Shown piece by piece: positions 20,589-57,009 of a DNA stretch of 64,000 nt. Within the stretch, counting starts at the first letter, position 1. Every line of letters begins with the position of its first letter. This DNA comes from Holdemania massiliensis AP2 (GTDB taxonomy: Bacteria; Bacillota_I; Bacilli_A; Erysipelotrichales; Erysipelotrichaceae). The notes beneath the pieces were generated by a model. That model was not told the DNA's origin, ran no database searches, and was given only the letters and a program-made list of their open reading frames with translations. The DNA is taken from NCBI RefSeq assembly GCF_000327285.1, contig NZ_HE998570.1, positions 161,732 through 225,731 on the forward strand. Reading direction: 5' to 3'. Made by a program: the position numbers and the translations under genes.

Positions 20589-21911
20589 ATGCGTTATTAC
20601 TTAGCCCGTTTTAAAGTCGCTGGAATTAAAAACTTAGATCAGAGGATTCAACTGGATTTCTGTGATAAAACCTTAAGATCCCATTTGGATTGGAGTCAAT
20701 CCAATATCAAGGCTATTTATGGGTCTAATGGTTCTGGAAAGTCCGCGATTATGAATGCCATGGCCATTTATAAAGAACTGGTCATGAACAGTAATTATCT
20801 CTATGATCATGAAACGACGTTATTTCTGAGTGAAATCATCAATAAGAAAACTCGAAAGCTGCAGATGGAGGTGACATTTTTAATTCTGAACGCTCAGGCG
20901 CAGATACAGACCATTCTTATCCATTCTATTTGTCTGAAACAAACGGGTTTTAAAGATTTTGTGATTGCTGAGGAACAGTTAAAAAAGCATACAGGTCAAA
21001 CCCTGGATACTGGAAAAACACAAACCTTATACCATGTTGAAGAGGGAAGTCTGAAGTCTTCAGATTTTAAAGAAATTGAATCTTTGAAAACAATGACCGC
21101 CAATTTAATGAAAAAACAAACAATTCCGGCTATTTTAATTCAACATACGATTGAAAATAAGGCGCAGATTCCTTTATCAACGTTCATAAAAAACATTCTT
21201 TCTGTTTATTTTTTTGCAGAAGCGCTGCATATTGAACTTTCCACTTCTGATCTGCATCGTGGCTGGATTCGGCAAAAACAAAAACAGCTCAGCGATTGGA
21301 CGCTTGATGATCTGCGGGAAGAAACAAGCTCAGCTTCATTTGAGTTTAATACGGAAGATGATGTGATCCCAATTCCCGCCTATCCTCAATATCAGCGGCA
21401 AATCCAACGACTCGCAGAGTTTATTCAGATCTTTAAGATGGATTTGCTTGGTATTGAAAATGAATGCAAAGAAGTTCAGGGAAATCTTGTTATTACAAAG
21501 TATTTGGTCTATAAAGACTTTAGAATCGCCAGTGAATTTGAAAGCACCGGAATCAAAAAGCTGATCACTTTATTTAATGCTTTTAAGCGTTTCATGAACG
21601 GCGATCTTGTCTTTATTGATGAACTGGATGCGAATCTGCATGATGTTTATCTCTGTCGTTTACTGGATTATTTTTGTGCTTATGGAAAAGGACAGCTCTG
21701 TTTTACAACGCATAATCTTGGACCGATGGAAGTATTAAGCAAACGGAAACATTCGATTGACTTCTTGTCTGATAATTCTGAAATTATTTCCTGGAAGAAG
21801 AAAGGGAATTATTCTGTGATTAATTTATATCGAAATGGAATGATTGATAATTCCCCCTTTAATATCGAACCTTTTGATTTTCTTGGCTTGTTTGAGGATG
21901 AGGATCAGTGA
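20589..21911 (+). CDS. AAA/ABC-type ATPase, RloA-like (putative defence protein)
   Basis: A 440-residue SMC/ABC-like ATPase of the RloA/AAA_15-21 group. Walker A is GSNGSGKS (45-52), the signature-like helix is ESTGIKKL, Walker B is VFIDELD (D344, E345) and the H-loop is TTHN (H375); the middle (about 80-300) is a helical insert. Proteins of this type power anti-phage modules in which a partner nuclease or TOPRIM-like protein is the effector. The start at 20589 follows GAGGTGAG. The stop overlaps the GTG of the next gene, so the two are coupled. The DNA is visibly more AT-rich than its surroundings, suggesting acquisition by transfer. Defence is inference from family and gene pair. Confidence 0.82.
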   Translation: MRYYLARFKVAGIKNLDQRIQLDFCDKTLRSHLDWSQSNIKAIYGSNGSGKSAIMNAMAIYKELVMNSNYLYDHETTLFLSEIINKKTRKLQMEVTFLILNAQAQIQTILIHSICLKQTGFKDFVIAEEQLKKHTGQTLDTGKTQTLYHVEEGSLKSSDFKEIESLKTMTANLMKKQTIPAILIQHTIENKAQIPLSTFIKNILSVYFFAEALHIELSTSDLHRGWIRQKQKQLSDWTLDDLREETSSASFEFNTEDDVIPIPAYPQYQRQIQRLAEFIQIFKMDLLGIENECKEVQGNLVITKYLVYKDFRIASEFESTGIKKLITLFNAFKRFMNGDLVFIDELDANLHDVYLCRLLDYFCAYGKGQLCFTTHNLGPMEVLSKRKHSIDFLSDNSEIISWKKKGNYSVINLYRNGMIDNSPFNIEPFDFLGLFEDEDQ

Positions 21912-22429
21912 AACAACTTTTAATATTTTGTGTCGAAAGTCAGGATGCACATCATGACAGTGACGGCTTGTATATAAAACAGGCGCTGAATCATTTTTAT
22001 CAGTTTGATCAGCACAAAACGATTCTGCGGTTTATCTATATGAATGGAAAATACAACTACGCCAAAAGACAAATTCAAGTCCAATTGAAAAAATTTATGG
22101 ATCAATTAGCAGCCGAGGATCAGGCTTATGTCTTTTATGTGTGTGATAAAGATGAAGAACTTCCCAGTGATTTTCGCCATGCTTCACAGATTCAGGCTTA
22201 TTGCCAGCAAAAGGGATATTTTCTGATTTGGATGAATCGAAATATCGAGGAAGTTTTCTGGGGAAGGAAAGTGGAAAATGGAAACAAAGTCAAAGAAGCC
22301 ATTCGTTTTAAAACTTCTGGGCGAATTCAATCCCTGCCTGAATCCGTATTCATGAATGAAAATGCTCAGCGCAGAACAACAAGTAATTTCCTGTTGGTTC
22401 TTGATCCCTGGCTAAAACGGAAGAATTGA
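21908..22429 (+). CDS. small TOPRIM-like protein, divergent RloB-like partner
   Basis: A 173-residue protein coupled to the ATPase gene (GTG at 21908 overlaps its TGA). The order hydrophobic strand-Glu (LLIFCVE, E10), then YVFYVCDKDE with D80-x-D82, then NRNIEEVFWG (110-119) mirrors RloB-type and other TOPRIM-like folds, where Glu and DxD bind metal and an NPCFE-like element follows. Identity to any named family is weak, and I assign it by motif order only. If correct, it would be the nucleolytic or RNA-acting effector of the pair. A basic C-terminus (WLKRKN) is present. Like the ATPase gene, it is AT-rich. Confidence 0.6.
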   Translation: MKQLLIFCVESQDAHHDSDGLYIKQALNHFYQFDQHKTILRFIYMNGKYNYAKRQIQVQLKKFMDQLAAEDQAYVFYVCDKDEELPSDFRHASQIQAYCQQKGYFLIWMNRNIEEVFWGRKVENGNKVKEAIRFKTSGRIQSLPESVFMNENAQRRTTSNFLLVLDPWLKRKN

Positions 22430-32564: not shown

Positions 32565-34100
32565 ATGAGAAGATGGCATTCTTTATTAGAAATCATTCAA
32601 TTTCCATTGAAAATGCTGTTTGTGGCAATCATCCTGACGGGGCTTGGAACCTTGATTACCAACCAGAGCTTATCGGTTTTCTGGTCGGTTAATGATCGCA
32701 ATATCCTGCTGCTGGCAGATCTGTTCAAACGGACCGGCAGTTTTATTATTATCAATTTTCCTTTCTTTGTCATGATAAAGTTTTTAGCGACAAAAAGCAA
32801 TTCATCCGTGCCGATTATGATCGGAATTACCGGATATGTGCTGGTCTTAGTGATCACGATGTTGTTTCAGCCCTCTGGACTGCCAACCTCGGCTTCTTCA
32901 GCCATTCTGGGATTAAGTTATTCTTCATCCTTATTTGACCGGACACGATATCCGTTACAGACGGGGTTCTTTGCGTGCGCAGCCGTTGTGCTGGCCTCGC
33001 GGATTGCCTATTCCAAATCACGGACGAAGTCGATATACGGGTTCTTCTCTTTTGTCGACCGGGATACCTGGGGCTTGATCTTAACTTTGGTTCTGTGTCT
33101 GATCACCGGTTTTGCGCTGGTCTGGATCTGGCCGATTGTGCTCAGTCTTCTCAATACGATTTTTGAGTTCATCGCTACGGATATTACCAATCCGATGAAC
33201 TTGTTTGTTTACGGCGTTATGGATCGGATTTTAGCGGATCTGAATCTGGGAGCGCTGATGCGGAATCTGTTCTGGTTTGGCGAACAGGGCGGGACGTGGA
33301 TCAATAATTTAGGCGTAAACTATACAGGAGATGTCGGCATCTGGACGGCGCAGATGAACAGTTTAATTACGCCAAGCGGAGTAGGCCGGCTGATCACGCC
33401 GTATTATGTTCTGAATCTGTTTGCGGTTCCGGGCATGCTGATCGGTTTCTATACGATGTTTACAGATAAGATGGAAAAACGGCGGATTCGTCTGTTCTTC
33501 TTAGTTGCGATTCTAGTGTCGTTAGTGACAGGAACGCTGCTGCCATTGGAATTGTATCTTCTGATCCTGACGCCGCTGTTATTTGTGTTCCATTTGATAG
33601 TTACCGGGGCATTGTTTGGAATCTTCCAGTCGATGAGCGTGACCTTGGGATTCAGTTATGCCGGAAGTACCGTGACGGCTATGCCGGGAACGCTGTTTGA
33701 TTTTATGCTGTATGTCCGCAATCCGAATATGCAGCACACGATTCAGATGATCTTCGTCGTTGGTGTGATTCTGTTTGTTCTCTACTTGGCATTTACCCGC
33801 TTTTACTTTAAGTATTTGGCGTTGGACTTGTTCAATACTGGTGCCAGCAAGCGAAGAGTAGAAGGCTTCATTCTGGCGGTCGGCGGCTTGGAAAACATCA
33901 AAATGATGCACTCTTCTCCTACCCGCTTAACGATTCAGGTTGTCGATTCCTCGCTGATCAATTTCTCTCAGATTCAGCGTCTGGGCGCCAGCCGCGTTGT
34001 AGAAAGCCGCGCGGGCTATTCGGTAAATTTCGGAGCCGGCAGCACAATCATAAAAAATGAAATCAACAAGCGCATCAAGGAAATGAAGCGCAGCGCATAA
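32565..34100 (+). CDS. PTS IIC-like membrane protein with a C-terminal IIB-like domain lacking the active Cys
   Basis: A 511-residue protein with about ten membrane segments (1-430) resembling glucose-superfamily PTS IIC proteins, followed by a short IIB-like domain (about 432-505: ILAVGGLENIK, then PTRLTI, then QRLGASRVVES and NFGAG). In true IIB domains a phospho-Cys stands two residues before T-R-L (as in C-x-T-R-L); here that position is Ser451 (HSSPTRL). The protein therefore probably cannot transfer phosphate to sugar. It may be a facilitator, a sensor or part of a non-PTS transporter. ATG at 32565 follows GCGAGGTGATG. No other PTS gene is adjacent; a terminator follows at 34111. Confidence 0.78.
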   Translation: MRRWHSLLEIIQFPLKMLFVAIILTGLGTLITNQSLSVFWSVNDRNILLLADLFKRTGSFIIINFPFFVMIKFLATKSNSSVPIMIGITGYVLVLVITMLFQPSGLPTSASSAILGLSYSSSLFDRTRYPLQTGFFACAAVVLASRIAYSKSRTKSIYGFFSFVDRDTWGLILTLVLCLITGFALVWIWPIVLSLLNTIFEFIATDITNPMNLFVYGVMDRILADLNLGALMRNLFWFGEQGGTWINNLGVNYTGDVGIWTAQMNSLITPSGVGRLITPYYVLNLFAVPGMLIGFYTMFTDKMEKRRIRLFFLVAILVSLVTGTLLPLELYLLILTPLLFVFHLIVTGALFGIFQSMSVTLGFSYAGSTVTAMPGTLFDFMLYVRNPNMQHTIQMIFVVGVILFVLYLAFTRFYFKYLALDLFNTGASKRRVEGFILAVGGLENIKMMHSSPTRLTIQVVDSSLINFSQIQRLGASRVVESRAGYSVNFGAGSTIIKNEINKRIKEMKRSA

Positions 34101-47475: not shown

Positions 47476-48465
47476 TCAGCGCAGGCTCTCCATGCAATAT
47501 TTGAAATAACTGGACTGGAAAATCATCTTACCATAGATTACTTTCTTCTTTCCACCTTTTATCATTTCTTCCTGAAAATCAGAGTGCTCCGGATTTTCCA
47601 GCACCTGTTCCAGGGTTTCCAGAAGATTCACTAAAACGATACTGGGCTGATCCAACGGTCCATGTCCGGGATAAACAAAATCGATTTCACTCCGGCGGGC
47701 GATGATGTTCATGAGCGCATCGCGCATGGCTGTGACCGTGCAGTATCGGGCGTAGGGATGATCGGGGGAAGTACCATAGGCATGGGTATAATCACCCGCA
47801 AATAAAATTTTATTTTGCTTATCCAGAAAGGCGCTCATACCCGTTGCATGTCCAGGCAGAAACATGAGTTCAATCTCAGTCCCGCCGCCCAAATCGAAAG
47901 TCGTTCCGTTGGGAACCCCGATAATTTTAAAATCATGATAACCGATTAAATCAGCCCGATCAAATTGGGTATAAATACAATTTCCTTCGGCATCGAAGAG
48001 CCGGTCCCAGGCATGCGGTGTTTTGATTTTTTCTAAATTGAGGACTTCATATTCGTGACAATAAACCTCATCAAACTGAAAGTCACCAAGCGCATGATCA
48101 CTGTGGGCATGCGTATTCACAACGATCAGCGGCATTCCACCGGTAATTTCATTGACCAGACCTTTCAGATCACCCGCGCCAAAACCGGTATCGATCAGCA
48201 TGGCTTTCTCACGGCCCAGAATTAAATAGATCCAGGGATTGCCCGCTCCGTCTAAACTCTCAGTAAAAATAGCATAGACATTCTTGCGGAATTGGTATAC
48301 TTCGGCGTATGGATTGATCGGATAGACACGGCGGGTTTTGCTTTGTTCCCGAAGCAGTTTCTCATACGGCCATTTGATCGGATTTTCCGGTTCCCGATAG
48401 CGCAGCCGCCGGCTTTTTAACTGAGCTTGTACAGGATGATGAAGCTCCAAGGATTCAAAGGCCAT
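47476..48465 (-). CDS. metallo-beta-lactamase-fold hydrolase
   Basis: A 329-residue MBL-fold enzyme. The zinc motif H-x-H-x-D-H is THAHSDHALGD (H119, H121, D123, H124), with further ligands in LPGHATGM and YPGHGPLD. The protein has an N-terminal extension of about 60 residues before the fold and no signal peptide. Activity could be as an esterase, lactonase or thioesterase; it is not class B beta-lactamase. It starts two bases after the ChbG/YdjC gene stop with an AAGGAGG site and is the last gene of the mannose-family PTS locus, which suggests a role in processing the imported sugar. Confidence 0.9.
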   Translation of the reverse strand: MAFESLELHHPVQAQLKSRRLRYREPENPIKWPYEKLLREQSKTRRVYPINPYAEVYQFRKNVYAIFTESLDGAGNPWIYLILGREKAMLIDTGFGAGDLKGLVNEITGGMPLIVVNTHAHSDHALGDFQFDEVYCHEYEVLNLEKIKTPHAWDRLFDAEGNCIYTQFDRADLIGYHDFKIIGVPNGTTFDLGGGTEIELMFLPGHATGMSAFLDKQNKILFAGDYTHAYGTSPDHPYARYCTVTAMRDALMNIIARRSEIDFVYPGHGPLDQPSIVLVNLLETLEQVLENPEHSDFQEEMIKGGKKKVIYGKMIFQSSYFKYCMESLR

Positions 48466-48467
48466 GA

Positions 48468-49334
48468 TCAGACCTCCTTGCCGGATTGAACAGCCAGATC
48501 ACTGCCGATTACTTTCAGATGATTCTGATAATCGTGCCGGTCATATAGCGCATCCCGCAACGATACGAGCTCGATCTTTGAGTCCCTGATCCAAGCCTTC
48601 AGCTCCGGTGCGCACAAGGCCCAAACATCGCGCGGCCGGCAGGCGGTAAACGAGGACTCCTGCACGATGTAATCATCCAGAAATCCTGGATGCCAGGCTG
48701 TGATGTAAGCTCCTTCCCAAGCGGGATTCACGGTTTCCTTATACCAACGGACAGGATTGTAATCCGCAAACAGACTGCAGTCTTCCTTGCCGCAGCCGAT
48801 ATACTTGCGGCGATCACCGACCGTAATGATCCGCGCCTGCTGAAATTGTGTCGGTTCGTTCAAAGCAACGCCGTCACGAACGTTATAAATATAATCATAA
48901 GGAATACCGTATTCCTCACAGATGATTTTCTTGGCTTCATCCAACGGCCCTGTTCCGTGCAGCCGCGTGGAATCCGGAGCCCGTCCCAGCAGTCGGATGC
49001 AGCGTTCCACCTCAGCCCGCAGTTCAATCAGCGCCTCATGAAAATCAACGGTTTCTTTTGCTTTGGGATCATGGCGGAATTTAAACCGGCCTTCGGCATT
49101 GACCATAGACGGAACAAGTTTCGGATCGGCGGCCGGAACACCCCAGTAATGACCGCTGTGCCAGCCAACCGAAATCCACGGGTAAGCTTTAATTCGCTCA
49201 ATCGCGTCTTCCACACCGGGCGTGTCCAGCATCAGATCCACGGTGGTGACAATGCCTTCTTCAATCGCTTTGATCGTTCCGTCATTGTAGGTGGGGGTAT
49301 AGCCATAATCATCGGCTTTGACAATTAATTTCAT
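48468..49334 (-). CDS. ChbG/YdjC-family carbohydrate deacetylase
   Basis: A 288-residue member of the YdjC family, metal-dependent deacetylases that remove N-acetyl groups from chitooligosaccharides or their phosphates (ChbG). The metal-binding N-terminus VKADDYGYT (D8, D9) and the His-rich WHSGHYWG motif are present, and later THLGHPGF-like AWHPGFLDD supplies another His. The length and cytoplasmic location fit. ATG at 49334 follows AAGGAGGAG. It follows the mannose-type PTS genes, after a terminator-like hairpin, and precedes the MBL gene. A substrate carrying an N-acyl sugar is therefore likely. Confidence 0.88.
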   Translation of the reverse strand: MKLIVKADDYGYTPTYNDGTIKAIEEGIVTTVDLMLDTPGVEDAIERIKAYPWISVGWHSGHYWGVPAADPKLVPSMVNAEGRFKFRHDPKAKETVDFHEALIELRAEVERCIRLLGRAPDSTRLHGTGPLDEAKKIICEEYGIPYDYIYNVRDGVALNEPTQFQQARIITVGDRRKYIGCGKEDCSLFADYNPVRWYKETVNPAWEGAYITAWHPGFLDDYIVQESSFTACRPRDVWALCAPELKAWIRDSKIELVSLRDALYDRHDYQNHLKVIGSDLAVQSGKEV

Positions 49335-49354
49335 CGAGCTCCTCCTTATTTTAG

Positions 49355-49393
49355 AAAAGGAAGGAAGCTGCGCAAGGCAGCCCGCTTCCTTTT
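49355..49393 (-). terminator. internal terminator-like hairpin between IID and the deacetylase gene
   Basis: On the minus strand GGAAG...GCTGC pairs with GCAGC...CTTCC, imperfectly in the middle, followed by TTTTCT. It probably reduces, rather than stops, expression of the deacetylase and MBL genes relative to the PTS genes. Confidence 0.55.
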
Positions 49394-49419
49394 CAAACCT
49401 GAAACAGAATATTTGACAG

Positions 49420-50253
49420 TTATATTAAGATACCGGTAAAGTAGCCTAGGACAGAAATTAAGAACATGGCGACCATAATCCGCATTGCACGCCCTTTTTT
49501 GTACTTGATCAGCCAGTAGATTAAAACCGTGGACAGGATCGTCAGCAAGCCTGGAAGAATACTGTCAATGACGCTCTGGATACTGGTGGTGCTGCCGCTG
49601 GCTGTAATCGCCAATCCGGTCTGCACATTCGCCGTACTGGCAACGACAGCGCCGATCACGATAATGCCCAGCATCTCAATCGCATTGACTGCGCGGTCTT
49701 TGAGATCGCTGTCCATCAGCTTTTCAGCACCGCTGATCCCCATTTTGACACCGGTTTTAAATAAGAACCAGACCAGCGGGATATTGATTCCGAAGAACAC
49801 GGCTACACCCAGAATGGCTCCCAACGGGGAACCGTCGGCACTCAGACTGATCCCGATGGAGAGCAGAATCGGGATCAATAAGCCTTGAATTAAAGAATCA
49901 CCGATACCGGCGAAGGGACCGGCCAGCGCCTGTTTGATACTCTGGATCAATTCATTGTCAATGGAATTGTTTTTTGCCCGTTCGATTTCCAACCCCAGAA
50001 CCACGCCTGGGACAATCGCCCCTAAATTCGGCTGTGTATTATAGAATACAGCATGATTTTTAATCAGTTCTTTCTGTTTTTCCGGATCTCCGGGATAGAG
50101 ATCCTCACGAATCTTAATAAACATGTTGGCCATGCCCGGCATCATCATGCGTTCAAAGGTGAAGCAGACACCGGCGACGTTATAATGCGCTAACAGAACT
50201 TTTCTCAGCCATCGATTATCATTGGCTAATTGATCTAATTTTGGATTAGACAT
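49420..50253 (-). CDS. PTS system mannose/fructose/sorbose-family IID component
   Basis: A 277-residue membrane component of a mannose-type PTS. It opens with a soluble helical part (NVAGVCFTFERMMMPGM and HAVFYNTQPNLG, both typical of IID) followed by several membrane segments including GPFAGIGDSLIQG, the family signature. Together with IIC it forms the channel. Its start overlaps the IIC gene by eight bases. Sugars of this family include mannose, GlcNAc, galactosamine and sorbose; the specificity here is unknown. Confidence 0.92.
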   Translation of the reverse strand: MSNPKLDQLANDNRWLRKVLLAHYNVAGVCFTFERMMMPGMANMFIKIREDLYPGDPEKQKELIKNHAVFYNTQPNLGAIVPGVVLGLEIERAKNNSIDNELIQSIKQALAGPFAGIGDSLIQGLLIPILLSIGISLSADGSPLGAILGVAVFFGINIPLVWFLFKTGVKMGISGAEKLMDSDLKDRAVNAIEMLGIIVIGAVVASTANVQTGLAITASGSTTSIQSVIDSILPGLLTILSTVLIYWLIKYKKGRAMRIMVAMFLISVLGYFTGILI

Positions 50254-51007
50254 GTTCAGCCTCCTTCTTTGTTCCCGTACAGATAAATAACAGATAAGCC
50301 AGAACGCCGGCGATGATCGTTACGGTAATGGTATCTAAGCCCATCACTTTAAACAGAACGAATCCGAAAACAAAATATAAGAATTGAATGTTCTTTTTGA
50401 TGAGGCCGGTCAGAAGCATACCGAAGCCTAAAACCGCGCCCATCTTTGTAAAGATTTTCATTGAGCCCAACAACCATGCCGGGATCAGTTCCGCGTATTG
50501 CAGGATGACGGTGGAACCCAGAACATTCATACCAAAAATGATAATGAAGTTGACGGCTGTGGATAAGATTAAACCGTAATAATAAGTGATGTATGCCTTG
50601 TCAAATTTCCCCTCGTCGATCTTTCGGTCAGCGGAGTGCAGAAAGTAGGTGTTTAAGGTTCTTAGAAACTGGGTAATAAAAGTTTCAAGCATGCTGAATG
50701 GAACACAGAGTGTGACGGCAAATTCAGCGTCGGCGCCGGAAATGATCGCCAGCGGCAGCGCAAACCAGATACAGCGGGTAATCGACGGCATGGATTGGAT
50801 ACCGCCTACGGCAATCACGCCGATATACATCGCCTGCAGTACAGAACCGATGATCATCGCCTGTTTGATATTGCCCATGACGATGCCGATGATCAGGGCA
50901 ACGATCAGCGGCTTGCCGGTAAACTGGTCAATAAAGCCGCCTCGCCAGAATGGAAGTCCGTAGATACTGGACGCAACGGCCAGCAGTAAAGCCTGAAATA
51001 CTGTCAT
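50246..51007 (-). CDS. PTS system mannose/fructose/sorbose-family IIC component
   Basis: A 253-residue integral membrane protein with about seven to eight segments. Family marks include the GIVMGNIKQAMIIGSVLQ stretch (read as GNIKQAMIIG then QAMYIGV) and a C-terminal TITVTIIAG. It is the substrate channel with IID. ATG at 51007 follows AAGGAGGGG, and it lies 25 bases after the IIB gene. The amino acid pattern resembles AgaC/SorA-type components rather than ManY, which hints at an amino sugar; this is inference. Confidence 0.9.
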   Translation of the reverse strand: MTVFQALLLAVASSIYGLPFWRGGFIDQFTGKPLIVALIIGIVMGNIKQAMIIGSVLQAMYIGVIAVGGIQSMPSITRCIWFALPLAIISGADAEFAVTLCVPFSMLETFITQFLRTLNTYFLHSADRKIDEGKFDKAYITYYYGLILSTAVNFIIIFGMNVLGSTVILQYAELIPAWLLGSMKIFTKMGAVLGFGMLLTGLIKKNIQFLYFVFGFVLFKVMGLDTITVTIIAGVLAYLLFICTGTKKEAEHV

Positions 51008-51032
51008 AATGAATTTTCCCCTCCTTGGTTGC

Positions 51033-51515
51033 TCAGTAATTCATTTTTATGCTATCCCACTCGGTGCATGGTGAAGTGGGGATCAGCCTGAACCAAATAT
51101 GGACGCCGTCTTCACTCATCTGTTTGACGGCGCTGATTTCCTGCGGCGTCAGATAGGCATATTTTGTTACGGCGGTCCGATCCTGACCGGCTGCTAGTGA
51201 TGCAATGTTCAGATCTTTCGGAAGATCTTCCACAGCTTCCAGCAGGCGCTGCATCACTAAAGGTGTTTTCATCAGAATCAACGTGCTGACTTCATTGTCA
51301 ACGGCTTTTCTGGCGGCTGAAATCGCTTGGTCGAAAGTCAGCGCTTCAGCGGTGATGTTGGACGGCACAGCTTTCTCAAAAATTCGTTTGAGAAAAGGGT
51401 TGGTCGCCGTAAAGTCGTCAATGACCAGGATGTGCTGGATGGCGTAAAGCTTGACGATTTGAGTTACACATTGGCCATGTATCAGCCGGTCGTCACTGCG
51501 TATCAGCTTGATCAT
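51033..51515 (-). CDS. PTS system mannose/fructose/sorbose-family IIB component
   Basis: A 160-residue cytosolic phosphocarrier. The active His is H13 in SDDRLIHGQ, the invariant mannose-family IIB motif, and the rest (LVIDDFTATNP, ILMKTPLVM) follows the family. It accepts phosphate from a IIA protein; that gene is not in this operon but is encoded divergently at 55069-55485. It begins 15 bases after the ceramidase-like gene with AAAAGGAG as binding site. Confidence 0.93.
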   Translation of the reverse strand: MIKLIRSDDRLIHGQCVTQIVKLYAIQHILVIDDFTATNPFLKRIFEKAVPSNITAEALTFDQAISAARKAVDNEVSTLILMKTPLVMQRLLEAVEDLPKDLNIASLAAGQDRTAVTKYAYLTPQEISAVKQMSEDGVHIWFRLIPTSPCTEWDSIKMNY

Positions 51516-51530
51516 AATTCGTTTCTCCTT

Positions 51531-52751
51531 TTATAAAATAGCAATGATTTTGTTGATATAATTTTCGACTTCTTCCGCCGGAATTCCGGAACTGATCGTT
51601 TCAAACGTTAAACCGTAATATTCCTTCGGGAATAAATAGCTGCCGCGGCCATTGGTGTAGCCGAAAATCAGGCAACATTTAGCGGGACTTAAACGTTTGA
51701 TTTCCTTTCCGAATTTAGACGCCAGCTCGCAGGGACTGACGACAATTTCAATGTCCTTCAGCCGAAGGGTGTCGGCAAACCAGTCAGCCCGGGCTTCATC
51801 CATCGTTAGTTTTCGGCGAAGTCCGCTCATCATGGAATTTAAAATCTTCCGCCGGTCAAAATCCTGACAAGTTTTTAATTCTTCTTCGTTGGCGTCAATG
51901 ATTCTCTGTACTTCCTTGTGGTCAATCGGATACCGGACATGATGTTCAGTCGAGGCAATCCGTTCAAATTCCAGCTCCAGTTTTTCATTCACTTCGATTT
52001 TACTGATTTCCTCGGCCATGCCCTGGGCAACGCGCTGCAGTTCATTGAAATCATTGCCCTGACGGGTGGCGCGGGTACTGCAGTCGCCGGCCGCGCCGAC
52101 GATCATGGCTGGCGCATAACCTTTTCTCTCTTTCAGCAAGCGGCGGACATTGCCGGCAAATTCCGCGGTCAGTAAAGCGTTGTCAGGGGTAATCACCGTA
52201 GAATGGACCGCCCAGTTGCAGATTGCCGCGACAACCTGATTCTGAGCATTGCGGAATTCAACCAGAATGACTTCGTTGTCAGCCAGCTCCCCATAGATGA
52301 TCCGGCTTCCGTAATATCCCGGAATGACCTTGCGTCCCATCCAGCATTCTACCTCTTCTAGTTGTGCTGAACACTCTTGATAGCCGCGGACAGCCAAGTC
52401 TAAAACATGGTCATGATATTCCTGATTGAACTGGCCGCTTTTTGCTGATTGCATGTGATCGCGGACAGATTGATGATTATGCGTCGCGGAGATTAGAACC
52501 AGTTTGGGATCCTGGTTAAATTGTGCTTGCAGCCGTTCTCGGATTTCACTGACGATTTCATCCTCGACATGGAGCCAGTCAGTGCTGAACAAAAACAACT
52601 TCTGATCATTGAAGTCCAGCAATGTCGTTGTGACATAAATATCGTCATGTACGCCTTGAGCGGGCAGATCCCGCAGCGGCGAATTATATCCGATCATATA
52701 AAACGGCTTATAGGTCGGGGTTAAACAATACTGCTCTGAATGCGCTTTCAT
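51531..52751 (-). CDS. neutral/alkaline ceramidase-like hydrolase
   Basis: A 406-residue protein resembling the N-terminal catalytic domain of neutral/alkaline ceramidases, zinc amidohydrolases that split an N-acyl bond. Matching blocks: ISATHNHQS (H91, H93), NWAVHSTVI (H183) and GAAGDCST (catalytic Ser position S225, usual form NVGD-x-SPN). The C-terminal Ig-like domain of true ceramidases is absent, and there is no signal peptide, so it acts in the cytosol. Placed first in a PTS operon with a deacetylase, it more likely acts on an N-acylated sugar or sugar derivative than on ceramide. ATG at 52751 follows AGGAGG at ten bases. Confidence 0.78.
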   Translation of the reverse strand: MKAHSEQYCLTPTYKPFYMIGYNSPLRDLPAQGVHDDIYVTTTLLDFNDQKLFLFSTDWLHVEDEIVSEIRERLQAQFNQDPKLVLISATHNHQSVRDHMQSAKSGQFNQEYHDHVLDLAVRGYQECSAQLEEVECWMGRKVIPGYYGSRIIYGELADNEVILVEFRNAQNQVVAAICNWAVHSTVITPDNALLTAEFAGNVRRLLKERKGYAPAMIVGAAGDCSTRATRQGNDFNELQRVAQGMAEEISKIEVNEKLELEFERIASTEHHVRYPIDHKEVQRIIDANEEELKTCQDFDRRKILNSMMSGLRRKLTMDEARADWFADTLRLKDIEIVVSPCELASKFGKEIKRLSPAKCCLIFGYTNGRGSYLFPKEYYGLTFETISSGIPAEEVENYINKIIAIL

Positions 52752-52773: not shown

Positions 52774-52802
52774 ATCATAGCATTCAGGAAAAGGGAACTC
52801 AA
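52774..52802 (-). promoter_or_regulatory. promoter of the ceramidase-PTS operon
   Basis: On the minus strand TTGAGT, a 17-base spacer and TATGAT form a sigma-A-type promoter about 22 bases before the ceramidase-like ATG. Its -35 overlaps the palindrome at 52798-52816. Confidence 0.6.
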
Positions 52803-52816
52803 TTTGTCAAATTGAG
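52798..52816. promoter_or_regulatory. perfect 9-1-9 palindrome overlapping the -35, putative operator
   Basis: CTCAATTTG-T-CAAATTGAG is a perfect inverted repeat lying between the regulator stop codon and the operon promoter, covering the -35. Position and symmetry suggest the binding site of a regulator, most simply the PRD protein encoded just upstream. Confidence 0.6.
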
Positions 52817-52831
52817 GGGTATTGACCGCAA

Positions 52832-54778
52832 TTATTTGTTAATGATACGGATTAAGGTAGCATAATCGATACGATGATCTTTATCCAAAACTAAGCCTTT
52901 TTCCTTGATTAATTTTTGGATTTTGACGCAGATGTATTGGGAATACAGTACATGATTGTTCCTGACGTTGTATAAAACGATTATGGAACAAAGCTGTTTT
53001 TTCCATTTGACCGGTTTGTCGAGGACCAAAACCTTGATGAAGGTTTTTCCAACCAGATCCTGAGTCGTATTGAGGACAATCAATTGATTATCCCAAACCG
53101 GACTGATGATGGATTCCATCTGCTGACAACGCCGGACAAACTGCTGAGCGTTGGGAATATCGGCCAGAATCTCCGTTTCAATTTGATGATAGACGGCCTC
53201 CCGTGTTGCAGCGTTTTGCAGATAGGTAATATCTTCAGCTTGAAAATACCGGCTGATTTCCAGTGAGTAAAAAGGATTATTCATCTTATGGATGTAGATT
53301 TTCTTATCCTGCGCAATGTTATAGGTCGGCATGCGCAGCACCCTTTCCGGATCCAGATCAAATTCCTGCTTACTGATGTCGGTAATGATAAAATCACAGC
53401 TTTTATCGGCCAGACACAGATATTCCAGGTAGTCCATCGGAATGTATTCAATCGCAAAGACCGTGTTCAGCTTGCGCAAAGCATGACATAAATAGCGGGA
53501 ATAGGATAGTCCATCTTTGGAAATGACAAAGACCGTGCGATGAATCTGCTTGTTGATTTCACTGAGCAGAATGCTGAAAACCGGATAAAAGCGATAAATA
53601 TCATAGATATTGAAGAATAAAGAATCCGCTTTTTTCAAATGTTCAAACAGAACCAGGCAAAAATTATTTAAATAGACGTCCAGCCGATATTTGGAAACCG
53701 CATCGACATCCACATGGAGTTTCATTTGTTCACGGAGTAAAAACGTGGTCATGGCCAGCCGGAATTCCGATTCAAAAAGCGGCAGGGAATAAGCTTCCAG
53801 ATGAAAGACGGCCTTTAGGTGATGCATGCAGGATTGAATCGTTTTTTCAAAGCCTAGTTTTTGATTCAGCAGAGCGGCTGATTCGACGTCCAGGGTACGG
53901 TAACAGTTCAGCAGAATCGCGACCGAAAGAATTTCATTCTCCGTATACTGAACATTATAGATCGTGCCTACTTGTGTCAGAATGGAAAGAGCTAACGGAT
54001 AACCCTGAGGAATGATATGTTTGTGAACTTCGATCACTTCCGGACTGAAGATAATTTGTTTTTCATAGCGACGACGCAGTGTGTTCATTAAAACCATGAA
54101 TATCAACTTGTCCAGATCACGGTAAGGAATGAGAAATTCTGCCTGCTTCAGTTGATTCAGGACGACTGTACGGACACATTGATACGCTTCATCTTGAATA
54201 AAAAGGTGAATCATACGGCAGTCCTGATCAAGATGCACATGATTATCATAATTCTTGAGAATACGGAATTCATTGATCAGCAGATTGCGTTTATTCCACT
54301 CATTGCCGCAGACACGAAGTCCGTTGTTGGTGTGATTCTCCAGCTGCAGATCAAATTGACGCAGCATCTTTTTAATTTCAATCATGTCTTGATTGATAAC
54401 GGAAGCGGAACAGTTGCAGGTCTGAGCGAAATCACTGATCGTCATTTTTTCGTCGTTGGTCAGAAGCTGGCGGAGAAGAAAATGAATCCGTTCTTTCTGT
54501 TCGGTCGCAAAGAAATGCCGGGCATGCGTCGTAGTCAGAAATTTGCGGCGGAAGCGCTGGAATTGATCAGAATCCAAAATTTCAATCTGATATCCGCGAG
54601 ACAGACAGGAGGCAATGGTAAAGCCCTCATTCTCAAGCTGATCGTTAAGCAGTTCGATTTCTTTTTTCAGTGTATTCAGGCTCTGGCCGCATTCTTTTCC
54701 CAGCACGTGGCCGGAAACCGGTCCTTCCGTTAGAATCAGCAGATTCAGAAGCCGAATCTGTTTCTCAAATAAAATCAT
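52832..54778 (-). CDS. PRD-type transcriptional regulator with a degenerate EIIA-like tail
   Basis: A 648-residue regulator related to that at 18397-20292. Order: N-terminal helix-turn-helix (1-60), second HTH (about 85-140, with FAQTCNCSASVINQDMIE), PRD-like helical domains (about 190-400), a IIB-like segment (about 410-500) and a C-terminal EIIA_2-like domain. In that last domain the P-H that carries the phospho-His in the paralogue aligns with N-T-T (VLNTTQDLVGK), so this tail probably cannot be phosphorylated. It is likely the regulator of the adjacent mannose-type PTS operon. ATG at 54778 follows AGGAGTACG. It is divergent from the IIA gene. Confidence 0.85.
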   Translation of the reverse strand: MILFEKQIRLLNLLILTEGPVSGHVLGKECGQSLNTLKKEIELLNDQLENEGFTIASCLSRGYQIEILDSDQFQRFRRKFLTTTHARHFFATEQKERIHFLLRQLLTNDEKMTISDFAQTCNCSASVINQDMIEIKKMLRQFDLQLENHTNNGLRVCGNEWNKRNLLINEFRILKNYDNHVHLDQDCRMIHLFIQDEAYQCVRTVVLNQLKQAEFLIPYRDLDKLIFMVLMNTLRRRYEKQIIFSPEVIEVHKHIIPQGYPLALSILTQVGTIYNVQYTENEILSVAILLNCYRTLDVESAALLNQKLGFEKTIQSCMHHLKAVFHLEAYSLPLFESEFRLAMTTFLLREQMKLHVDVDAVSKYRLDVYLNNFCLVLFEHLKKADSLFFNIYDIYRFYPVFSILLSEINKQIHRTVFVISKDGLSYSRYLCHALRKLNTVFAIEYIPMDYLEYLCLADKSCDFIITDISKQEFDLDPERVLRMPTYNIAQDKKIYIHKMNNPFYSLEISRYFQAEDITYLQNAATREAVYHQIETEILADIPNAQQFVRRCQQMESIISPVWDNQLIVLNTTQDLVGKTFIKVLVLDKPVKWKKQLCSIIVLYNVRNNHVLYSQYICVKIQKLIKEKGLVLDKDHRIDYATLIRIINK

Positions 54779-54936: not shown

Positions 54937-55068
54937 CAAAACAGATCCCCAGAAGTGATAATCTTGTTATCGAAGTCACTTCAACACCCCATGAGTTCTT
55001 TCTGTTTTTTTTCGATGATCATGAAGATCCGTTCCTTCCTGGCGGACGTGAAAAGAAAGGAACTTTTT

Positions 55069-55485
55069 ATGTTAGCAATTTTTATCTGTTCGCATTCTGA
55101 CTTTTCAACCGGATTGAAGAAATCCGCAGAGATGATCGCCGGTCCCCTGGACTTCGTTGAAGCGTTTTCCTTATGGGAAGGAGAGTCATTAGAATCTTTG
55201 GCTGCTCAAATCAGAGAAAAATATGACTTTTATCATAGTCAGCAGATACCGGTGGTCTGTCTTTGTGATTTGGAAAACGCAACGCCGTATAATGCCTGCA
55301 TTTGGGCGCTGAGCGATACTCACTGCCGGATTTTCGCCGGTGCGAATCTGCCGTTAGTGCTGGAATTGGCGCTGGGACGGGATATGGCTGAGAATCTCGA
55401 TGAGTTTCTGGATCAATGTTTGCGATCTGCCCAAGGAGCGCTGAATGCCATCGGAGTTCAGGATTTTTTAACGGCCAATGATTAA
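55069..55485 (+). CDS. PTS system mannose-family IIA component
   Basis: A 138-residue cytosolic phosphocarrier of the EIIA-Man fold. The N-terminal IFICSHSDFSTGL carries the phospho-His H9 (usual form THG-x-A-x-G), followed by helices and the strands VVCLCDLE and RIFAGANLPLVLEL typical of the family. It is separated from IIB, IIC and IID, lying on the other side of the PRD regulator gene and transcribed divergently with its own promoter. ATG at 55069 is used because GAAAGGAAC lies upstream; the frame is open further 5' within the leader without a binding site. A terminator follows. Confidence 0.88.
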   Translation: MLAIFICSHSDFSTGLKKSAEMIAGPLDFVEAFSLWEGESLESLAAQIREKYDFYHSQQIPVVCLCDLENATPYNACIWALSDTHCRIFAGANLPLVLELALGRDMAENLDEFLDQCLRSAQGALNAIGVQDFLTAND

Positions 55486-55629: not shown

Positions 55630-57009
55630 TTGCATGGCGGAAAACAATTAAAGAAAAGCAGCGTGGATTTAACGCAGGGATCGATCTGGAAACAACTTTT
55701 ACTGTTTGCCCTTCCGATCTTTGTCGGACAGTTGTTTCAGAATTTATACAACAGTGTGGATTCGCTGGTCGTCGGCAACTTCGTTGGAAAAACAGCGCTG
55801 GCGGCGGTTAGTTCAACCAATGATATCTCTCATTTTCTTGTGGGCTTTTTTACCGGACTGGCTTCCGGCGGCGGTGTTTTCTTCGCTCAGATGTTTGGTA
55901 AAAAGGATTATCAAAAGCTGAGCGACGGAATTCATACAACGATTTTGTTTGCCTTTCTCTTCGGTTTCGTCATGGCTGGGGTTGGCTACTGGCTCTCACC
56001 GCAGCTGCTGCAGCTGATCAGCTGTCCGCCGGACGTGTATGCCAGCGCTTTGGAATATCTTCGGATATATCTGATTGGAATTCTCTTTACCGCCATTTAT
56101 AATGTCGGCGCCGGAATTTTAAGAGCGGTCGGGGATTCCAGCAGTCCGTTTTATTATTTGTTAATTTCCAGTATGACCAACATTGTGCTTGATCTTCTGT
56201 TTGTCTGCGGATTTAACATGGGCGTGGCCGGCGTTGGCTGGGCGACAACTTTAGCTCAGTTGGTTTCCGTAATTCTGGTCTTAAGAAAAATGATTAAGAC
56301 GCATGATGTTTACAAATTAGAAATTCGGAAATTACGGTTAAATCAGCCGATTTTGGCGGAGGTTTTAAGGCTGGGAATTCCAGCGGGCATTCAGACCAGC
56401 ATCACGTCGATTTCCAATATGTTCGTGCAGCGCTACACGAATGGTTTCGGTTCTTCCGCCATGGCGGGAATCGGAGTAGCAAAAAAAGTGGAGAAATTTG
56501 CCGGATTGTCCTGCAGCTCGCTGGGCGTGGCCATCACTACCTTTATTGGTCAGAATTATGGAGCGGACAAGAAAAAACGAGCGGTGGAGGGGATTCGGAT
56601 CAGCGTTTGGATTTCGGTGATTATGGTAGGACTGACCAGCCTTGCCTTGTTCATACTGGCGCCGGGAATTGCGGTAATCTTTAACCGGGATGCAGAGGTG
56701 GTCGCTTATGCCTCAGCGATGATTCGGGTAATCATGCCATTTTATCTGTTCAATGCGATGTATAACATTTTTTCCGGAGTTGTCCGCGGTTTTGGCAAAT
56801 CAAAGTCTGTAATGCTGTGCGTTATCTTAGGTCTGGTTGGCTGCCGACAGCTGTGGCTGGCGGTCAGTATGAGTATCAAATCCGATGTCTTTAATGTTTA
56901 TTTTAGTTATCCAGCAGGTTGGATTGGCGCCTCAATTCTTGTCTATCTTTACTATTATTTCAATATCAGGCGAACCGTTGTTGCTGAAATTCAACATTCA
57001 GACGCATGA
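55630..57009 (+). CDS. MATE-family efflux transporter
   Basis: A 459-residue exporter with about twelve membrane segments. The first half has FVGQLFQNLYNSVDSLVVGNF (split as GQLFQNLYN and SLVVGNFVG) and GILRAVGDSS; the second half has NGFGSSAMAG and FSGVVRGFG, typical of NorM/YeeO-like MATE proteins in Firmicutes. The substrate is unknown. The start is TTG at 55630, nine bases after AAAGGAGG; the nearby ATG in another frame stops at once. It is transcribed alone, with a TATAAT at 55573-55578 upstream and a terminator at 57016. Confidence 0.92.
   Translation: MHGGKQLKKSSVDLTQGSIWKQLLLFALPIFVGQLFQNLYNSVDSLVVGNFVGKTALAAVSSTNDISHFLVGFFTGLASGGGVFFAQMFGKKDYQKLSDGIHTTILFAFLFGFVMAGVGYWLSPQLLQLISCPPDVYASALEYLRIYLIGILFTAIYNVGAGILRAVGDSSSPFYYLLISSMTNIVLDLLFVCGFNMGVAGVGWATTLAQLVSVILVLRKMIKTHDVYKLEIRKLRLNQPILAEVLRLGIPAGIQTSITSISNMFVQRYTNGFGSSAMAGIGVAKKVEKFAGLSCSSLGVAITTFIGQNYGADKKKRAVEGIRISVWISVIMVGLTSLALFILAPGIAVIFNRDAEVVAYASAMIRVIMPFYLFNAMYNIFSGVVRGFGKSKSVMLCVILGLVGCRQLWLAVSMSIKSDVFNVYFSYPAGWIGASILVYLYYYFNIRRTVVAEIQHSDA

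Follow-up and report, generated by a model that had tools for sequence, protein, structure and literature searches.

A ceramidase-fold hydrolase encoded beside a mannose-type phosphotransferase system in Holdemania massiliensis, and its possible role in the use of acylated sugars

We analysed a stretch of 64,000 nucleotides from Holdemania massiliensis AP2 (the window), in which the gene for a ceramidase-fold hydrolase (CER) precedes genes of a mannose-type phosphotransferase system (PTS). CER has the catalytic fold and active-site residues of neutral ceramidases in a cytosolic form, the PTS beside it is complete, and linkage of the CER family to PTS genes is conserved. Our best reading is that CER would work in the cytosol as a zinc-dependent acyl-hydrolase on an acylated amino sugar that has been imported and probably phosphorylated. 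Open reading frames (ORFs) in the window were typed with Pfam and NCBIfam models. These gave the minus-strand transcription order of the first seven genes below; the last two genes listed lie on the plus strand.

52832-54778, minus strand: regulator of the Mga/AcpB-EbpR-MafR type (PF05043, PF08279; NF053736, 6.1e-14)
51531-52751, minus strand: CER, 406 amino acids (PF04734, PDB profile match, fold, active-site residues)
51033-51515, minus strand: mannose-type PTS IIB, active His13 (PTSIIB_sorb PF03830, 3.6e-32)
50246-51007, minus strand: mannose-type PTS IIC (EII-Sor PF03609, 2.2e-47)
49420-50253, minus strand: mannose-type PTS IID (EIID-AGA PF03613, 1.1e-70; tree placement)
48468-49334, minus strand: ChbG/YdjC-family deacetylase (YdjC; PF04794, 2.5e-23)
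47476-48465, minus strand: metallo-beta-lactamase-fold (MBL) hydrolase (Lactamase_B PF00753, 1.2e-17)
54955-55485, plus strand: divergent PTS EIIA-man, probable ATG start at 55069 (PF03610, 3.1e-17, residues 42-154)
55630-57009, plus strand: MATE exporter (PF01554, 7.9e-60), adjoining the EIIA-man gene

CER starts with the ATG at 52751, with an AGGAGG site 5' of the start codon. The ORF list and Pfam confirmed the coordinates and names that the original prediction gave for CER, IIB, IIC, IID, YdjC and MBL; it had overlooked the EIIA-man, MATE and regulator genes. The NCBIfam match of EIIA-man begins at residue 39 and its active-site histidine is His47 (ORF numbering). This gene completes the transporter of IIB, IIC and IID, so that all four components are present with active histidines. 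The best NCBIfam model for IIC was AgaW (1.6e-26), with a score far under the model cut-off. The Mga/MafR-type protein, encoded directly upstream of CER, has a weak, degenerate EIIA-like C-terminus and a homologue in related loci, and is the probable regulator of the locus.

The ceramidase fold and active site of CER

CER matched the Ceramidase_alk model PF04734 at 2.2e-8 (33.7 bits; cut-off 32.1) over residues 18-203 only, and the same model matched 27 of 27 members of our family alignment A1, with E values up to 0.01. Searched against the PDB, a family profile found the neutral ceramidases 4wgk (7.9e-24) and 2zws (1.7e-23) as its sole confident matches. We modelled CER with AlphaFold from 35 aligned sequences, reaching a mean predicted local distance difference test (pLDDT) score of 95.2; a single-sequence prediction (pLDDT 33) was unusable. 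The model superposed on 2zws with Z 37.1 over 374 residues at 18% identity, the full length of CER covering 2zws residues 5-483, and on 4wgk with Z 35.1; structures ranked under the ceramidases (Z 7 and less) were treated as background. The catalytic-domain fold of neutral ceramidase is thus complete in the model, which ends where the immunoglobulin (Ig)-like domain would start, so that this C-terminal domain is absent. A search for a signal peptide or membrane anchor in CER found no hydrophobic N-terminus (top 19-residue hydropathy 0.84). The likeness to the catalytic domain of neutral ceramidases and the lack of both signal peptide and C-terminal Ig domain, all claimed in the original prediction, are therefore borne out.

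The active-site residues of CER are H91, H93, R150, H183, S225, E342 and Y372. Besides the His and GD-x-S blocks reported at the outset, these include the active-site Arg, Glu and Tyr. Residue counting in the printed alignment pairs human His194, His196, Arg257, His303, Glu540 and Tyr579 with CER H91, H93, R150, H183, E342 and Y372. The assignment of the zinc-binding residues in human neutral ceramidase is in part one that we take as given. For the Arg257-R150 pairing (motifs NRS versus GSR/GNRN) the printed alignment was shifted slightly by hand, a shift that we consider natural because R150 is retained in 169 of 173 family members; H91 is retained in 171 and Y372 in 172. In the human enzyme, His196, Arg257, Tyr579 and Tyr591 are catalytic and Ser354 positions Arg257 (PMC6952831). 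The equivalent of Tyr591 is F383 in CER and varies across the family (Y in 104 members, F in 49). We conclude from the model that CER belongs to the neutral ceramidase superfamily as a zinc hydrolase whose predicted fold and active site are intact, and that its domain content marks it as a cytosolic form other than the secreted ceramidases. With the structurally defined ceramidases (Pseudomonas aeruginosa, 2zws; human ASAH2, 4wgk) it shares the catalytic fold, the zinc ligands and equivalents of His196, Arg257 and Ser354; it differs from them in sequence (about 18% identity), in its cytosolic form lacking signal peptide and Ig domain, in the Tyr591 to Phe change, in its shorter domain (406 residues versus 479 in 2zws) and in having sugar-transporter neighbours.

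Linkage of the CER family to sugar transporters

This genome holds eight members of the CER family, and 50 of 145 related genomes hold at least one. Among 108 members sampled from related genomes (Erysipelotrichales), a mannose-type IIC gene lay within 3 kb on the same strand in 33 cases and on the opposite strand in 3; beyond 3 kb its occurrence dropped to about 0-1% per kb, so that the clustering exceeds chance. For relatives in named genomes we scanned contigs, where a single-protein query gave no matches and an alignment query did. Among the 37 closest named-genome loci (L133-L169), 30 carried a same-strand PTS within 6 kb, several of the others being truncated by contig ends, and the PTS types beside CER were mannose, beta-glucoside and cellobiose. 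Linkage is thus conserved across many genera and three PTS types, the reverse of the absent linkage that the original prediction had named as counting against it. A literature search for ceramidases with PTS, in operons, or for PF04734 in bacteria returned no relevant paper, which does not prove that none exists.

Family members beside sugar transporters are spread over several bacterial phyla and occur in three types of operon. Type I, which the window resembles, combines a regulator, CER and a mannose-type PTS, often with MBL, YdjC, HAD, NIF3-like, and MATE or MFS genes; its hosts are Erysipelotrichaceae metagenome-assembled genomes, Dielma fastidiosa, [Clostridium] asparagiforme and Lachnospiraceae. 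The set of CER, MBL and PTS is found in D. fastidiosa and [C.] asparagiforme, with YdjC added in Dielma and in the Erysipelotrichaceae assemblies. Type II, the most widespread, comprises a LysR gene, an Amidohydro_2 gene, two CER genes and a PTS of the beta-glucoside or cellobiose type (Oenococcus oeni, Enterococcus, Clostridium neonatale, Breznakia, Lucifera, Paenibacillus and Collinsella). Among solved structures, aromatic-acid decarboxylases are the closest to its Amidohydro_2 protein. The two CER genes, CER-a and CER-b, stand as pairs with an adjoining PTS in L102, L103, L131 and L140-L168. In CER-a, the first gene, H93 is replaced by F and the zinc ligand H183 by Q, and S225 is mostly lost, so that it resembles a degenerate partner of the second; the sequences suggest an enzyme/pseudoenzyme pair beside the PTS. 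The third type, in the Alphaproteobacteria Nitratireductor, Microvirga and Ponticoccus, holds LacI, NagB-like, SIS (PRK02947) and NagA-like genes with CER and a sugar ABC transporter. These clusters, too, have a ceramidase-annotated gene of this family next to a sugar transporter, and differ from the window in ABC import, in lacking R227 and R230, and in having NagA instead of YdjC and MBL.

In a tree of IID proteins, the window sequence fell in a well-supported MBL-linked clade whose nearest outside rows are NanE-linked transporters; the joint MBL- and NanE-linked set had support of 97/91 and its internal split a weaker 86/65. These Erysipelotrichaceae mannose-type PTSs with NanE, putatively of the N-acetylmannosamine type, are thus the closest transporter kin of the window IID, but in place of CER, YdjC and MBL they have NanE and sometimes a sulfatase as neighbours. 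The nearest relative of the window PTS adjoins a BD-FAE-type esterase and a sulfatase, and some of the nearest transporters adjoin an SGSH-like sulfatase or an esterase. It is as if this transporter lineage handled decorated hexosamines from which adjoining enzymes strip the decorations. Two sulfatases with an SGSH-like C-terminus, at L248:11543-13021 and L252:6094-7458, directly adjoin a mannose-type PTS (in L252 also NanE), and possibly mark PTS import of sulfated amino sugars.

In the tree, the MBL/YdjC/CER set occurs with three or more separate lineages of IID, which argues for functional coupling rather than a single inherited arrangement. The MBL protein carries its HxHxDH motif at residues 119-124, reached the cut-off of none of the specific NCBIfam subfamily models, and has homologues, 41-52% identical, that recur beside mannose-type PTS and CER. 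This MBL family (L115, L041, L063, L239, L242, L245 and L246) recurs with mannose-type PTS, YdjC, NIF3-like and MATE genes, CER being optional. A DUF34/NIF3-family gene recurs in mannose-type PTS operons (L133:11192-12055, L239:3758-4621 and L243:10867-11700). YdjC matched the EF_3048 structure 2i5i at 1.8e-12 and scored 72 bits against the ChbG equivalog of NCBIfam, under its cut-off of 227. The system of ChbG/YdjC chitooligosaccharide deacetylase and chitobiose PTS likewise has a YdjC-family gene beside a PTS; the window differs from it in a PTS of the mannose rather than lactose/chitobiose type, in lacking a phospho-beta-glucosidase, and in its sub-equivalog YdjC.

Candidate substrates of CER

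We favour, at just under even confidence, a pathway in which the PTS supplies an acylated amino-sugar derivative, most likely an N-acylated one, and CER acts on its phosphorylated form. We infer the following order of steps. The mannose-type EIIA-IIB-IIC-IID would import and phosphorylate the sugar, a function assigned by family membership. In the cytosol, the CER zinc site (H91, H183, E342 and Y372) would, with H93 and R150, split an acyl bond in the phosphorylated sugar. YdjC would take off an N-acetyl group, the MBL enzyme would open or remove a further substituent, and the MATE pump may carry a freed moiety out of the cell, with the regulator presumably controlling the genes of the locus.

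Three contexts hint toward amino sugars: NagA, NagB-like and SIS genes with CER and the alphaproteobacterial ABC transporter; NagA, NagB, NanE and genes of that SIS family near other Erysipelotrichaceae members; and NanE adjoining the closest relatives of the window PTS. Characterised enzymes of the neutral ceramidase fold are amidases, and for this reason we judge an N-acyl bond the likelier target. The import locus for an N-acylated sugar put forward in the original prediction therefore stands as to its cytosolic ceramidase-fold enzyme, its PTS sugar import and the linkage of the two, with the N-acyl substrate a plausible candidate. A motif in CER, R227xxR230, is a possible phosphate site; PTS-linked members retain it, and the alphaproteobacterial members linked to ABC transporters lack it. 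More tentatively, the large uncharacterised branch of the ceramidase fold to which CER belongs could consist of intracellular acyl-sugar-phosphate hydrolases serving PTS import of the mannose, glucoside and cellobiose types, with this Arg-x-x-Arg phosphate site; in many Firmicutes and Collinsella an intact CER would act together with a degenerate one that lacks a zinc ligand.

Several observations weigh against this amino-sugar pathway. Although 34 of the 108 Erysipelotrichales homologues share a same-strand run with mannose-type PTS genes, 74 lie outside such runs (some contigs end nearby). Four loci (L236, L242, L245 and L246) carry the MBL module without CER, which is thus optional rather than obligatory. 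The R227/R230 pattern also tracks phylogeny, and the motif is retained in Firmicutes members with no adjoining PTS, which makes it weak evidence of a phosphate site. NagA already provides deacetylation in several clusters, so that simple removal of an N-acetyl group is an unlikely role for CER there. Finally, for those operons of the family that combine Amidohydro_2 with a beta-glucoside PTS, an ester substrate is just as good a fit.

This last point leads to the strongest competitor, that CER is an esterase or lactonase acting on O-acyl or aryl-ester decorations of PTS-imported sugar phosphates, for which no amino sugar is required. The most widespread operons, with their two CER genes, beta-glucoside or cellobiose-type PTS and decarboxylase-like Amidohydro_2, would suit such a role, as would an Agrobacterium homologue with a tannase and an esterase of the EstA type nearby, and the BD-FAE-type esterase and sulfatase beside the nearest relative of the window PTS. 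We nevertheless consider it unlikely, given the amidase activity of characterised enzymes of the fold, the NagA, NagB and NanE neighbours in other branches, which favour amino sugars, and a YdjC in the window that belongs to an N-deacetylase family. Import of a glycosylated toxic compound or other glycoside, from which the hydrolases free the sugar while MATE or MFS pumps expel the aglycone, appears improbable. MATE or MFS genes do recur in L133, L134, L135, L138, L239, L242, L245 and L246 (MATE in L133, L135, L138, L239 and L246), but the module has no glycosidase, and MATE genes are common in bacterial genomes, the recurrence being a raw count. We reject as very improbable that CER acts on lipids, as a ceramidase proper or an N-acylethanolamine hydrolase, and has PTS neighbours by chance, since, for all its full neutral-ceramidase fold and zinc site, CER lacks a signal peptide, membrane segment and Ig domain, has Phe for Tyr591, and belongs to a family repeatedly found beside ABC sugar transporters and PTS genes of three types.

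In several clusters of the family an SIS protein is encoded alongside the ceramidase-like gene, and the window itself has no SIS gene. Streptomyces NagS is an SIS-family N-acetylglucosamine 6-phosphate (GlcNAc-6P) dehydratase, and the Firmicutes SIS homologues assayed in the same study had no appreciable activity on GlcNAc-6P (PMC12680351). NagS-type dehydration by the SIS partners was set aside because these homologues are inactive or negligibly active.

In many gut and environmental bacteria, members of the CER family carry the annotation 'neutral/alkaline non-lysosomal ceramidase' or 'hypothetical'. If these proteins act on sugars, the ceramidase annotation misleads microbiome studies of sphingolipids, and a new catabolic step for amino sugars or acyl sugars awaits assay. 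The conserved operons offer direct test cases in culturable D. fastidiosa, O. oeni, Enterococcus and Collinsella.

Candidate DNA signals and other genes in the window

Three candidate signals flank the CER and PTS genes.

52798-52816, strand not assigned: perfect 9+1+9 palindrome CTCAATTTG-T-CAAATTGAG, overlapping the promoter-like site upstream of CER
52774-52802, minus strand: promoter-like TTGAGT-17-TATGAT upstream of CER
49351-49397, minus strand: terminator-like hairpin between IID and YdjC

Promoter- and terminator-like sites were as numerous in the region as in shuffled background, and we therefore use them as weak hints. The palindrome is a possible operator for the transcript of CER and IIB-IIC-IID; among the fetched related loci it was found only at the window's own locus. 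The original prediction had placed YdjC and MBL in one operon with CER and the PTS. The run from CER through IIB, IIC and IID holds, and both further genes are present, but they lie behind the hairpin and may form a separate or attenuated transcript. A scan of the region against Rfam matched no RNA family.

Elsewhere in the window, a large membrane protein of 511 amino acids (32565-34100, plus strand) had no Pfam match; its C-terminus resembles a PTS IIB-like domain by eye only. At 20589-22429 (plus strand), a low-GC island of two genes encodes an AAA ATPase with a match to the AbiLi model (PADLOC, 9.7e-30) and, after it, a 173-amino-acid protein that matched nothing in Pfam or PADLOC; the pair is a candidate phage-defence system.

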